From the NCBI GenBank assembly GCA_016793045.1, contig JAEUKZ010000123.1, positions 1-41,937 on the forward strand: DNA of 41,937 nt, in the 5' to 3' direction. Each line of letters opens with the position of its first letter. Within the stretch, counting starts at the first letter, position 1. The position numbers and the translations under genes were made by a program. Source of the DNA: Alphaproteobacteria bacterium. GTDB lineage: Bacteria; Pseudomonadota; Alphaproteobacteria; CACIAM-22H2. The notes below the pieces were generated by a model. The model worked only from the letters and a program-made list of their open reading frames with translations. It ran no database searches and had not been told where the DNA came from. Shown here piece after piece: positions 6,962-40,012 of this stretch.

Positions 6962-7681
6962 ATGATCACGCTGATCAAGTACCACCCCGCCTTCGGCCTG
7001 CCCGACCCCAGCCCGTTCTGCCTCAAGGCCGAGATCCTGCTGAAGCTGGCCGGCGTCCCTTATCGCGTCGAGCCGGTGAACGATCCCGGCCGCGGCCCCA
7101 AGGGCAAGCTGCCGGCAATCGTCGATGGCGGCACCACGCTCGGCGATTCGGAACTGATCCGCCTCCATCTCGAGCGCACGACCGGCATCGACTTCGACGC
7201 CGGGCTCTCCCCGGCGGAGCGCGCGGTCGCGCACGCCTTCGCGCGCATGCTGGAGGAGCGCACCTACTGGGTCGGCGTCTACATGCGCTGGATCGAACCA
7301 GCGGCCTGGGCGGTGGTGCGCGAGACGTTCTTCGGCGGGCTGCCGCCGGTGGTGCGCTCGCTCGTGCCGATGCTGGTCCAGCGCAGGATCCGGCGGACGC
7401 TGCACCTCCAGGGCCTCGGCCGCCACAGCCGCGACGAGATCTACGGCTTCGGCATCGCCGATTTCCGCGCCGTCGCCGCGCATCTCGCCGACAGGCCCTA
7501 TTTCATGGGCAGCCGGCCGACCGCGGTCGACGCCACGGTCTACGCCATGATCGCCGCGATCGTCGTGCCGGACTTCGCCTCGCCGCTGAAGGACGAGGCG
7601 CTGCGCCACGCCAACCTCGTCGCTTACGAACGCCGAATGCGCGCGCAGTTCTGGGGCGCGCCGGTCGCTGCGGCCGCGTAG
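6962..7681 (+). CDS. Glutathione S-transferase family protein (metaxin/FAX-like)
   Basis: The 239-residue product has an N-terminal thioredoxin-like GST domain (MITLIKYHPAFGLPDPSPFC, PKGKLPAIVDGG with the cis-Pro, then LGDSELIRLHLE with the SNAIL-like ES/DS motif) and an all-helical C-terminal domain. LSPAERAVAHAFARMLEERT and YWVGVYMRW resemble the failed-axon-connection/metaxin branch. The RPYFMGSRPTAVDATVYAMI segment is the conserved helix-6 N-capping region of GSTs. ATG at 6962 has GAGAGG about 10 bases upstream; GTG at 6932 is an in-frame alternative adding ten unlike residues. It is divergent from the WYL regulator across the palindrome, so probably its target. Substrate unknown. Confidence 0.88.
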   Translation: MITLIKYHPAFGLPDPSPFCLKAEILLKLAGVPYRVEPVNDPGRGPKGKLPAIVDGGTTLGDSELIRLHLERTTGIDFDAGLSPAERAVAHAFARMLEERTYWVGVYMRWIEPAAWAVVRETFFGGLPPVVRSLVPMLVQRRIRRTLHLQGLGRHSRDEIYGFGIADFRAVAAHLADRPYFMGSRPTAVDATVYAMIAAIVVPDFASPLKDEALRHANLVAYERRMRAQFWGAPVAAAA

Positions 7682-32323: not shown

Positions 32324-32378
32324 GGTCGCGTCCCCGCTTCCCCCTTTCATTCTTGGCGTTCATCGCTGGAGGTCTGTC

Positions 32379-33587
32379 GTGCGCAAGGGCGATTTCGTAT
32401 TCACGAGCGAATCGGTTTCCGAAGGTCATCCGGACAAGGTGTGTGACCGGATCTCGGATGCGGTCGTGGATGCGTTCCTGGGCCTCGACCCGCAGGCGCG
32501 CGTCGCCTGCGAAACCCTGGCGACGACCAATCGCATCGTCATCGCCGGCGAAGTCCGCATGGACAAGAAGAAGTGCGGCGCCAAGGCCCCGATGCTCAAG
32601 AGCGGCGAGATCAACAAGAAGCTGATCGAGAAGATCGCGCGCGAGGCGGTGAAGGACATCGGCTACGAGCAGAAGGGCTTCCACTGGCAGAAGGCAAAGG
32701 TCTCGATCTACCTGCACGGCCAGTCCGCCGACATCGCGCAGGGCGTCGATGCCAAGGGCAACAAGGACGAGGGCGCGGGCGACCAGGGCATCATGTTCGG
32801 CTATGCGTCGAACGAGACGCCGGAGCTGATGCCGGCGCCGATCCAGTACGCCCACAACGTGCTGCGCCTGATGGCCGAGGCCCGCCACGCCGGCAAGGAG
32901 AAGATGCTGGAGCCCGACGCCAAGAGCCAGGTCACGCTGCGTTATGTCGACGGCAAGCCCGTCGGCTGCACCGCCTTCGTCATCTCGACCCAGCACAGCG
33001 CCAAGGTCGACCAGGACGCGGTGCGCGAGATCGTCCGCCCCTACGTGCAGAAGGTGCTGCCGGCCGGCTGGTTCCCGCCGGAGGAGCACTTCTACGTCAA
33101 CCCGACCGGACAGTTCATCATCGGCGGCCCGGACGGCGACACCGGCCTCACCGGCCGCAAGATCATCGTCGACACCTACGGCGGTGCCGCCCCGCACGGC
33201 GGCGGCGCCTTCTCGGGCAAGGACCCGACCAAGGTCGACCGCTCGGCCGCCTATGCCGCGCGCTACCTCGCCAAGAACGTCGTCGCGGCCGGCCTCGCCG
33301 ACCGCTGCACGATCCAGCTCTCCTATGCGATCGGCGTCTCCCACCCGCTGTCGGTCTATGTCGACACGCAGGGCACGGGCAAGGTCGACGAGGAGCGGCT
33401 GTCGAAGGTGCTGCAGGAGCTGATGAGCCTCAGCCCGCGCGGGATCCGCGAGCACCTCAAGCTCAACAAGGCGATCTACGCGCGCACGTCCTCCTACGGG
33501 CACTTCGGCCGCATGCCGCACAGCGACGGCGGCTTCTCGTGGGAGAAGACGGACCTCGTCAAGGACCTGAAGAACGCGTTTGCCTGA
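32379..33587 (+). CDS. metK: S-adenosylmethionine synthetase
   Basis: The 402-residue product makes SAM from methionine and ATP. Signatures: [20 protein letters not shown] at the N-terminus, [15 protein letters not shown], and [20 protein letters not shown] with the phosphate-binding Lys and Asp residues. Length is slightly above E. coli MetK (384), as usual in alphaproteobacteria. GTG 32379 is preceded at 6 bases by GGAGG and aligns with the family; the frame is open for 24 more codons, but these look like leader. SAM made here is used by MiaB and TrmB, encoded nearby. Confidence 0.97.
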
Positions 33588-34520: not shown

Positions 34521-34581
34521 GGCCTTGGACAGCCGTCCGGGCCGGCACCACGAAGTGGGCCGCTGAGGCCCACTTTTTTTT
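34521..34581 (+). ncRNA. rimP leader with intrinsic terminator (candidate attenuator)
   Basis: Two consecutive hairpins lie in the predicted 5' leader. The first pairs GGCC (34521-34524) and GGAC (34527-34530) with GTCC (34535-34538) and GGCC (34540-34543). The second pairs AAGTGGGCC (34553-34561) with GGCCCACTT (34567-34575) around GCTGA and runs into eight T (34574-34581), a textbook terminator 43 bases before the coding start. Its place, after the promoter and before the first gene, implies attenuation. I recall a described alphaproteobacterial rimP-leader family of this kind; membership needs a covariance search. Confidence 0.75.
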
Positions 34582-34623
34582 GGTTCCGGCTCAGGGCCGT
34601 CTATCGCCTTTGGAGGATCGACG

Positions 34624-35133
34624 ATCGCGACCGACCGTGAAAACGCGCTCGAAGCCCTGGTTGGGCCCACCCTCGACGGGTTGGGCTACGACCTCGTGCG
34701 CCTGACGGTGTCGGGGAGCCGCGCGCCGGTGCTCCAGGTGATGGCGGAACGGCGCGACGGCGTGGCGATGACGATCGACGACTGCGAGCGCATCAGCCGC
34801 GCGCTGTCGGCGAAGCTCGACGTCGAGGATCCGATCGCCGGGTCCTACACGCTTGAGGTGAGTTCGCCGGGCCTCGACCGGCCGCTCACGCGGCCGAAGG
34901 ATTTCGCGCGCTTTGCCGGGCAGGTCGCCCGGGTCGAAACGCGGCTGCCGCAGGACGGCCAGCGGCGATTCAAGGGCCGCATCGCGCGCGCCGACGAGGC
35001 GGTCGTGACGCTCGCGGTCGCGGACGAAGGGGCGGCGGAACGGGAAGTGTCGATCGCCATCGCGAACATCGCGAAGGCGCGGCTTGTATTGACCGACGAA
35101 ATGCTGCGCGCCGCTGCGCGCGCCGGAAGGTGA
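34624..35133 (+). CDS. rimP: Ribosome maturation factor RimP, probable ATC start
   Basis: The product, 169 residues if it starts at ATC 34624, aids 30S assembly. The body is clear: [40 protein letters not shown] and [20 protein letters not shown] are RimP signatures. The conserved N-terminal helix ([20 protein letters not shown]) lies before the first usual start, TTG 34681. In frame upstream there is no ATG, GTG or TTG back to the stop at 34564. A strong GGAGG (34612-34616) is 7 bases before ATC 34624, which I take as the start; ACG 34621 is possible. nusA begins 3 bases after the stop. Confidence 0.85.
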
Positions 35134-36711: not shown

Positions 36712-37370
36712 TCGGATCTGCCGCCATAGACGCCGCGCCCCCGACCGGGCCGGTCCCGACGCCTTCACGACGCGAGCGCGAGCGCCGCTGCGTCGTGACC
36801 GGCGCCGTGGAGCCGCGCGACGGGCTGGTGCGCTTCGTCGTGGGGCCGGACGGCGCGATCGTGCCCGACATCGACGAGCGGCTGCCGGGGCGCGGCATCT
36901 GGGTCGAGGCGAAGCGTGACGTGCTGGACAAGGCGGTCGCCAAGAATGCCTTCGCGCGCGCGGCCGGGGCGAAGGTCGCGGTGCCGGCCGACCTTGCCGA
37001 GCGCGTGGCGTCGCTGCTGGCGGCGCGGGTGATCGCGCAGGTCGCGATGGCGCGCCGCGCCGGGGCCGCCCTCGCCGGGTTCGAAAAGGTTCAGGCGGCG
37101 CTGCGCGAAGGCCGCGCCGCGCTGCTGCTCGAGGCGCGCGACTGCGGCGCCGATGCGCCGCGGCGCATCGCCGGCGCGCTCGGCGCCAGGCCGGTGCTGC
37201 GCACGCTGGCCGGCTTCGAGCTGGCGTCGGCCTTCGGGCGCGACGTCGTGGTGCATGTGGCGATCGCCCCCGGGCGCTTCGCCGAGACGATTGAACGCGA
37301 ATGCCGGCGGCTCGCCGGGTTCCGGCCGGATGCGGCCGGGGCAACTGACACGGAACTGGACAGGCGATGA
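36708..37370 (+). CDS. ylxR: YlxR (DUF448) RNA-binding protein with C-terminal L7Ae-like domain
   Basis: The 220-residue product has an N-terminal YlxR domain (about 20-100: [40 protein letters not shown]) with the conserved GRGxW motif, fused to a C-terminal region (about 110-200) resembling L7Ae/L30e-like RNA-binding folds, as in other alphaproteobacterial YlxR proteins. It is always tied to nusA-infB; the exact role is unsettled, with nucleoid or RNase P association reported in other bacteria. It starts at GTG 36708 and overlaps both neighbours by 4 bases. Confidence 0.92.
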
Positions 37371-40012
37371 GCGATACGACCGACACCAAGGACGAAGCCA
37401 AGAAGCGCCTGGGGCTCGCGCGCCCCGGTGGGCGGCTCGAGCTGCGCTCCGATGCGGGCCAGGTGCGCCAGAGCTTCTCGCACGGCCGTTCCAAGACCGT
37501 GCAGGTCGAGGTTCGCAAGAAGCGCGTGCCCGGCCCGTCCGGCGCAGCGGCCCCGGCGGCCGCGCCGTCGCCCAGCCCGGCCCCGGCGCCTGCCGCCCCC
37601 GCGCCCCGCCCGGTCGAAGCGCGCGCGCCGGCGCCGGCGGAAGCGCCGCGCCCGCAGCCGCGCACCGATCTGCCCAAGCGCCCGCAGGTCCTGCGCGCGC
37701 TGACCGAGGAAGAGCGCGCCGCGCGCGTGCGCGCCCTCCAGGGCGCGATCCGCGACCAGTCCGCGCGCGCCAAGGATGCCGAAGCGCGCCGCGTCGAGGA
37801 CGAGGCCCGCCGCCAGGCCGACGAGGACCGTCGCCGCCAGGAGGAAGAGGACCGCCGCCGCGCCGAGGACGAAGCCAAGCGCCTCGCCGAGGAAGAGTCG
37901 AAGCGCAAGGCCGAAGAGGAAGCGCGCAAGAAGGCCGCCGAGGACGAAGCCAAGCGCCGCAAGGCCGCCGAGGTTTCGGGCCAGTCGGCAGCCGCCAAGC
38001 TCGCCGCCGTCGCGCCGGAGGAGGAAGACCGCGGCGACGCGCGTCCGCGCCGCCCCGGCGTGGTGATGCCGCCCAAGCGCCCGACGATCGGGCCGCGCCG
38101 CGACATGGGCCGTCGCCAGGGTGCGGGCCGCGTCAACGTCACCGCCGCGCTCGAAGGCGACGACACGATGCGCGCCCGTTCGCTCGCGGCGATGCGGCGC
38201 GCGAGCGAAAAAGAGCGCCGCCGGATGTTCGTCGACCAGGGCCCGGCGCAGAAGATCCGCCGCGAGGTCGTGATCCCCGAAGTCATCACCGTGCAGGAAC
38301 TCGCCGCGCGCATGGCCGAACGCGGCGCCGACGTCATCAAGGCGCTGATGAAGATGGGCGTGATGGCGACGATCAACCAGAACATCGACGCCGACACGGC
38401 GGAGCTGGTGGTCGGCGAATTCGGCCACACCTTCAAGCGCGTGTCCGAAGCCGACGTCGAGGTCGGCCTGTCGGGCGAAAGCGACACCGACGAGAGCCTG
38501 GTGCCGCGCGCCCCCGTGGTCACCATCATGGGCCACGTCGACCACGGCAAGACCTCGCTGCTCGACGCGCTGCGCGACACCGACGTCGCCAAGCACGAGG
38601 CCGGCGGCATCACGCAGCACATCGGCGCCTACCGCGTGCTGCTGAAGTCCGGCAAGACGATCACCTTCCTCGACACGCCCGGCCACGAGGCCTTCACGGC
38701 GATGCGCGCGCGCGGCGCGTCGGTCACCGACATCGTGGTCCTGGTGGTCGCGGCCGACGACGGCATCCAGCCGCAGACCGTGGAGGCGATCAACCACGCC
38801 AAGGCGGCGCAGGTCCCGATGATCGTCGCCATCAACAAGATCGACAAGCCCGACGCCGATCCCGACAAGGTGCGCCGCGGCCTGCTCCAGCACGGCATCG
38901 CGCTCGAGGAAATGGGCGGCGACGTGCTCGCGGTCGAGGTCTCGGCGCTCAAGAAGATCGGCCTCGAGAAGCTCGAGGAGACGATCCTGCTGCAGGCCGA
39001 ACTGCTCGACCTCAAGGCCAACCCGGACCGCACCGCCCAGGGCATCGTCGTCGAGGCGAAGATGGAACGCGGCCGCGGGTCGGTCGCGACGGTGCTGATC
39101 CAGAAGGGCACGCTGCATGCGGGCGACATCTTCGTCGCCGGCGCCGAATGGGGCCGCGTGCGCGCGCTGATCGACGACCACGGCCGCCAGGTCGAATCCG
39201 CCGGGCCGTCGGTGCCGGTGGAGGTGCTCGGCCTCAACGGCACGCCGTCGGCCGGCGACGAGCTGTCGGTGGTCGAGGACGAGGCGCGGGCGCGCGAGGT
39301 CACCGCCTTCCGCCAGCGCAAGAAGCTGTCGGAGCGTCACGCCGCCGGCGCGCGCGGCACGCTCGAGCAGATGTTCACCAAGATCACCGAGGGCACGGTC
39401 AAGGAACTCGGCGTGGTCGTGAAGACCGACGTGCAGGGTTCGCTCGAGGCGATCACCGGCACGCTCGCCAAGATCGGCACGGAGGAGGTTGCGGTGCGCC
39501 TGCTCCACGGCGCGGTCGGCGCGATCACCGAGGGCGACGTGGCGCTCGCCAAGGCGTCGAACGGGCTGATCGTCGGCTTCAACGTGCGCGCCTCGCCGCA
39601 GGCGCGCGACATCGCGCGGCGCGATGGCGTCGAGATCCGCTACTACTCGATCATCTACGACATCATCGACGACATCAAAGCGGCGCTCTCGGGCATGCTC
39701 GCGCCCACCTTGCGCGAGCGTTTCCTCGGCTACGCCGAAATCCGCGAGGTCTTCGACGTGTCGAAGGCGGGCAAGGTCGCGGGCTGCCGCGTCACCGAAG
39801 GCATGGTCAAGCGCGGCGCCAAGGTGCGCCTGCTGCGCGACAACGTGGTCATCCACGAAGGCACGCTCAAGACGCTGCGCCGCTTCAAGGACGAGGTGCG
39901 CGAGGTCCAGGAAGGCTACGAATGCGGCATGGCGTTCGAGAACTACCAGGACATCCGCCAGGGCGACCGCATCGAGTGCTTCGACGTGGAATCGGTCCAG
40001 CGGGCGCTTTAG
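37367..40012 (+). CDS. infB: Translation initiation factor IF-2
   Basis: The 881-residue GTPase brings initiator fMet-tRNA to the ribosome. A small N-terminal IF2-associated segment ([19 protein letters not shown]) and a long charged Ala/Glu/Arg/Lys-rich linker (about 60-250) precede the IF2_N domain (about 300-350, [20 protein letters not shown]). The G domain follows with G1 [10 protein letters not shown]3 DTPGHEAF and G4 NKID, then domains II-IV to the end. All nucleotide-binding motifs are intact. Shortly after the stop, a near copy of the last 19 bases recurs. Confidence 0.97.

Follow-up and report, generated by a model that had tools for sequence, protein, structure and literature searches.

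The rimP gene of an alphaproteobacterial draft genome appears to begin at a non-canonical ATC codon. The gene lies in a window of 41,937 nt (the whole stretch of DNA that was analysed), which is contig 76 in a 5.3-Mb draft genome of 462 contigs, and on balance its genuine start is probably the ATC at 34624. Starts of this type are already known; their use by rimP adds a new gene, in one genome so far, and no report of an AUC start for rimP was found in the literature searched. Outside infC, few natural non-canonical starts have been documented, and rimP, if its ATC start is real, would be a further such example, in a ribosome-assembly gene. Standard gene callers would then mis-annotate rimP, dropping the first helix of the protein.

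The rimP start region and the RimP N-terminus

The gene order in this part of the window is metK, trmB, rimP, nusA, an RNA-binding protein gene, infB, an unassigned gene, rbfA and truB. All genes from metK through truB are open, and all except the unassigned gene match family models. The apparent start of metK (window 32368-32381) is GTG 32379, with GGAGG 6 nt upstream, and its mechanical ORF begins at TTG 32307. Elsewhere in the window, ARAGORN predicts a tRNA-SeC gene (anticodon tca) at 7531-7621 on the reverse strand. The features that bear on the rimP start are as follows.

34552-34579, + strand: hairpin resembling an intrinsic terminator, with a T run after its 10-pair stem, immediately 5' of the rimP ribosome-binding site; fold z -4.4
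34564-34566, + strand: in-frame TGA closing the rimP frame upstream, read directly from the sequence
34612-34616, + strand: Shine-Dalgarno core GGAGG, 7 nt before ATC 34624 and 4 nt before ACG 34621
34621-34623, + strand: ACG, alternative and less likely near-cognate start; GGAGG spacing 4 nt, coding signal starts there, central base other than U
34624-34626, + strand: ATC, proposed rimP start codon; GGAGG spacing 7 nt, infC precedent in the same genome
34624-35133 (from ATC; from ACG 34621), + strand: rimP, 169 codons and stop
34627-34683, + strand: codons of RimP helix 1 (residues 2-20), lost or nearly lost with a start at TTG 34681
34681-34683, + strand: TTG, earliest canonical start codon of the frame but an unlikely start; its use would delete helix 1 and the invariant P15
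35137-36711, + strand: nusA, following rimP in the operon (TIGR01953)
37367-40012, + strand: infB (IF-2), in the same operon as rimP (TIGR00487)

An earlier note on this DNA had observed that the rimP frame is free of ATG, GTG and TTG between the stop at 34564 and TTG 34681, and that GGAGG stands exactly 7 nt before ATC 34624. Both statements hold on the sequence, with zero such codons in frame across 34567-34680 and the GGAGG core at 34612-34616, so that a conserved N-terminus is encoded where no usable ATG, GTG or TTG precedes it. The predicted GGAGG duplex, for which the 16S tail was assumed, has an energy of -9.3 kcal/mol, and the duplex and accessibility computations made under the same assumption gave modest values. 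The distance from GGAGG to the start is normally 4-8 nt in this genome, and by this survey the 7 nt to the rimP ATC fall within the usual range for a strong Shine-Dalgarno sequence. As GGAGG occurs at a frequency of 8.4e-4 per base per strand (359 sites in 214 kb), it would be expected 5-8 nt ahead of a given codon about 0.3% of the time. The hairpin upstream of the ribosome-binding site has the layout GAAGTGGGCC-GCTGA-GGCCCACTTT, followed by the T run. Elements of the form GTGGGC..GCCCACTTTTT, which resemble it, occupy the same position in other alphaproteobacterial rimP leaders (L106, L131, L027), and an Rfam search of the rimP leader, hairpin included, returned zero families above threshold.

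The protein read from ATC 34624 is an ordinary RimP. Pfam places RimP_N (PF02576, 1-73/73, E 4e-23) from residue 12 and the C-terminal SH3 domain (PF17384, 1-69/70, E 8e-17) behind it, NCBIfam NF000932 is matched above its cut-off, and the predicted structure resembles the E. coli RimP seen in 7afi, a 30S assembly complex (7afi_X, E 1e-12, TM 0.75). Identity to 25 aligned relatives is 49-63%, and in many of them the alignment extends to residue 3-4; P15, G21, V25 and R26 are invariant. Similarity begins at residue 4 (GAC 34633), and the conserved N-terminal helix is thus encoded 5' of TTG 34681, as the earlier note had proposed. In the AlphaFold model (mean pLDDT 88.6) helix 1 comprises residues 2-20, with a mean pLDDT of 95 over residues 11-20 and 77 over residues 1-10. 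Translation from TTG 34681, which would give this species a RimP devoid of helix 1, would employ the first canonical start codon in the frame. However, such a start corresponds to residue 20, dropping residues 1-19 with P15 and nearly all of the helix, and both the codon-usage signal and the homology extend upstream of it, making this reading highly improbable. The other frames of the region do contain canonical start codons (e.g., TTG 34580, TTG 34610, and GTG 34637), from which RimP could be reached by frameshifting or across an undetected indel. However, the in-frame homology from 34633 would confine any shift to at most a few dozen bases, and neither a slippery site nor a Shine-Dalgarno sequence for these three codons was noticed; an out-of-frame start accordingly has very little probability.

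The apparent non-canonical start of infC, and the rarity of such starts in the draft genome

A precedent for the ATC start is found in infC of the same genome (L053, 1450-1500), which reads AAGGAGA-gtctcg-ATC GCT CGA CCG ATG ATG and has an apparent ATC start. Because an in-frame ATG ATG lies four codons downstream of this ATC, its use is deduced from relatives in which no ATG occurs there. ATA or ATC stands at the infC start in 22 of 22 readable alphaproteobacterial genes, this genome included, and in eight of them the codon is ATC. Given this uniformity of AT(A/C), AUC very probably functions as a start codon in this lineage. AUU, AUC, and AUA are bacterial non-canonical starts, and IF3 discriminates against starts that lack a 3' G (PMC4611024); the earlier note had mentioned AUU and AUC as infC starts that put this gene under IF3 control. 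In Staphylococcus aureus, infC, cvfC1, and ccpN have non-canonical starts with strong Shine-Dalgarno sequences, and the AUU/AUA starts of cvfC1 and ccpN give reduced output (PMC13009471). The rimP gene shares with infC a near-cognate AT(H) start, a strong Shine-Dalgarno sequence, and a place in a translation-factor operon, and in this genome both genes have Ala (GCN) as second codon. However, the infC start is AT(A/C) in all 22 genes read, whereas ATC in rimP occurs in one genome only.

The infC precedent also bears on ACG 34621, one codon upstream of ATC and 4 nt from GGAGG. The rimP coding signal begins at 34621, which favors ACG, and the genome has 8 counts of a 4-nt GGAGG spacing. Since spacings of 4-8 are equally common in a larger sample, ATC and ACG are not separable by spacing. 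However, ACG has no central U, which PMC4611024 describes as the one base conserved universally among bacterial start codons, and in the statement cited in PMC12350097 the seven strongest E. coli start codons include AUC and not ACG. From the central U and the infC precedent we infer that ATC is to be preferred, and a start at ACG is decidedly unlikely.

The rarity of such starts within the draft genome was assessed with a codon-usage gene caller that is blind to start codons, applied to 0.58 Mb of the genome, in which it called 497 genes. This caller replaced one based on ORF length, which was overwhelmed by antisense ORFs in the GC-rich genome, and was also used in place of raw GGAGG-to-codon distance counts, which were mostly codon-phase noise. 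It begins rimP at 34621. In 14 of the 497 genes the coding signal precedes the first canonical start by at least 10 codons, and the three strongest of these are a probably spurious antisense call, rimP, and an uncertain heptosyltransferase-like gene. A Shine-Dalgarno sequence followed by ATA, ATC, ATT, or CTG occurs at 946 sites in the 0.58 Mb, and as rimP is the only convincing gene start among them, ATC starts are not general in this genome. Similarly, a pattern search of the whole genome returned 136 matches to GGAGG..ATCGC, most of which are expected to be intragenic; among the 30 that were examined, rimP only had the features of a start.

The heptosyltransferase-like gene (RILVIKTSSLGDVVHALP; L247, contig 108, 16153-17208, reverse strand) has no ATG, GTG, or TTG ahead of its first strand. 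It may start at a CTG with GGAG 6 nt upstream, or may contain an indel, as an out-of-frame ATG lies upstream; a close family ortholog was not found.

rimP starts in other genomes

The 5' region of rimP was compared across 135 genomes or records, nearly all of them alphaproteobacterial, in which the draft genome is the single representative of its genus. The window gene is the only one of the 135 in which no canonical start lies within 30 codons of the conserved region. The earlier note had suggested looking for ATC, ATT, or ACG at the same place in relatives; none of the other 134 rimP genes has any of them at the aligned position, and each has a canonical start candidate in range. The 22 relatives from the same family have canonical starts, mostly an ATG at the codon aligned with ACC 34630, two codons downstream of ATC 34624, so these relatives do not share the exact ATC. 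Judged from these sequences, the ATC is confined to this genome and is no regulatory feature that rimP genes conserve.

As the genus is represented by one genome, a base-call error is the main rival to the ATC start. A true G at 34626 (ATG GCG ACC GAC CGT) or a true T at 34622 would provide an ordinary ATG, and a single changed base would thus give a textbook rimP start with perfect Shine-Dalgarno spacing. The draft state of the assembly and the absence of ATC from the other 134 rimP genes point the same way. However, indirect evidence speaks against an error: consensus substitution errors are generally known to be rare in short-read assemblies, and none of the neighbors metK, trmB, nusA, infB, rbfA, and truB has a broken frame, each fitting its family model. 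A sequencing or assembly error may therefore be regarded as a minority explanation, albeit one of real weight. The ATC start put forward by the earlier note is thus retained as the best reading of the sequence, with the infC precedent in its favor and a base-call error still as its rival.

One further rimP in the comparison (L182, G345:C1:629726-630126) has an apparent CTG start (CTG aac ccg atc), where its congeners (L160, L168, L174) have TTG (TTG gac ccg), and near-cognate rimP starts may thus occur elsewhere.

Possible control of RimP synthesis by IF3

Taking ATC 34624 as the start allows a model of rimP translation. This model proposes that the initiator fMet-tRNA would decode the AUC, held in place by the strong GGAGG 7 nt upstream, to yield fMet-Ala-Thr-Asp-Arg-Glu-Asn and the full-length RimP fold. 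As the AUC lacks a 3' G, IF3 would be expected to disfavor it in the way it disfavors the AUU/AUC/AUA start of infC, such that RimP synthesis would be slow and would drop further when IF3 is plentiful. On what is known of the biochemistry of initiation, and with infC as precedent, rimP translation is probably weak and IF3-sensitive. A broader proposal, which is possible but rather doubtful, is that in this lineage rimP, as first gene of the rimP-nusA-infB operon, has gained an infC-like AUC start through which IF3 levels directly set RimP synthesis, coupling the supply of an initiation factor to 30S maturation. Autocontrol by IF3 is proven for E. coli infC, whereas for rimP we infer a response to IF3 from the identity of the codon only. 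Any effect of the AUC start on the downstream nusA and infB is a matter of speculation. If real, the rimP start would suggest that single point changes can create IF3-sensitive starts in other translation genes.

Single genes other than infC in which a near-cognate start lowers expression include E. coli pcnB (AUU) and S. aureus cvfC1 (AUU) and ccpN (AUA) (PMC13009471, PMC1780047). These starts have been shown experimentally, and those of ccpN and cvfC1 are conserved, whereas the rimP ATC is known from the sequence of one draft genome. E. coli rimP, an ortholog that likewise stands in a rimP-nusA-infB operon, also opens with a weak start codon, TTG. However, that TTG is canonical and escapes discrimination by IF3, whereas the ATC of the present rimP is non-canonical.
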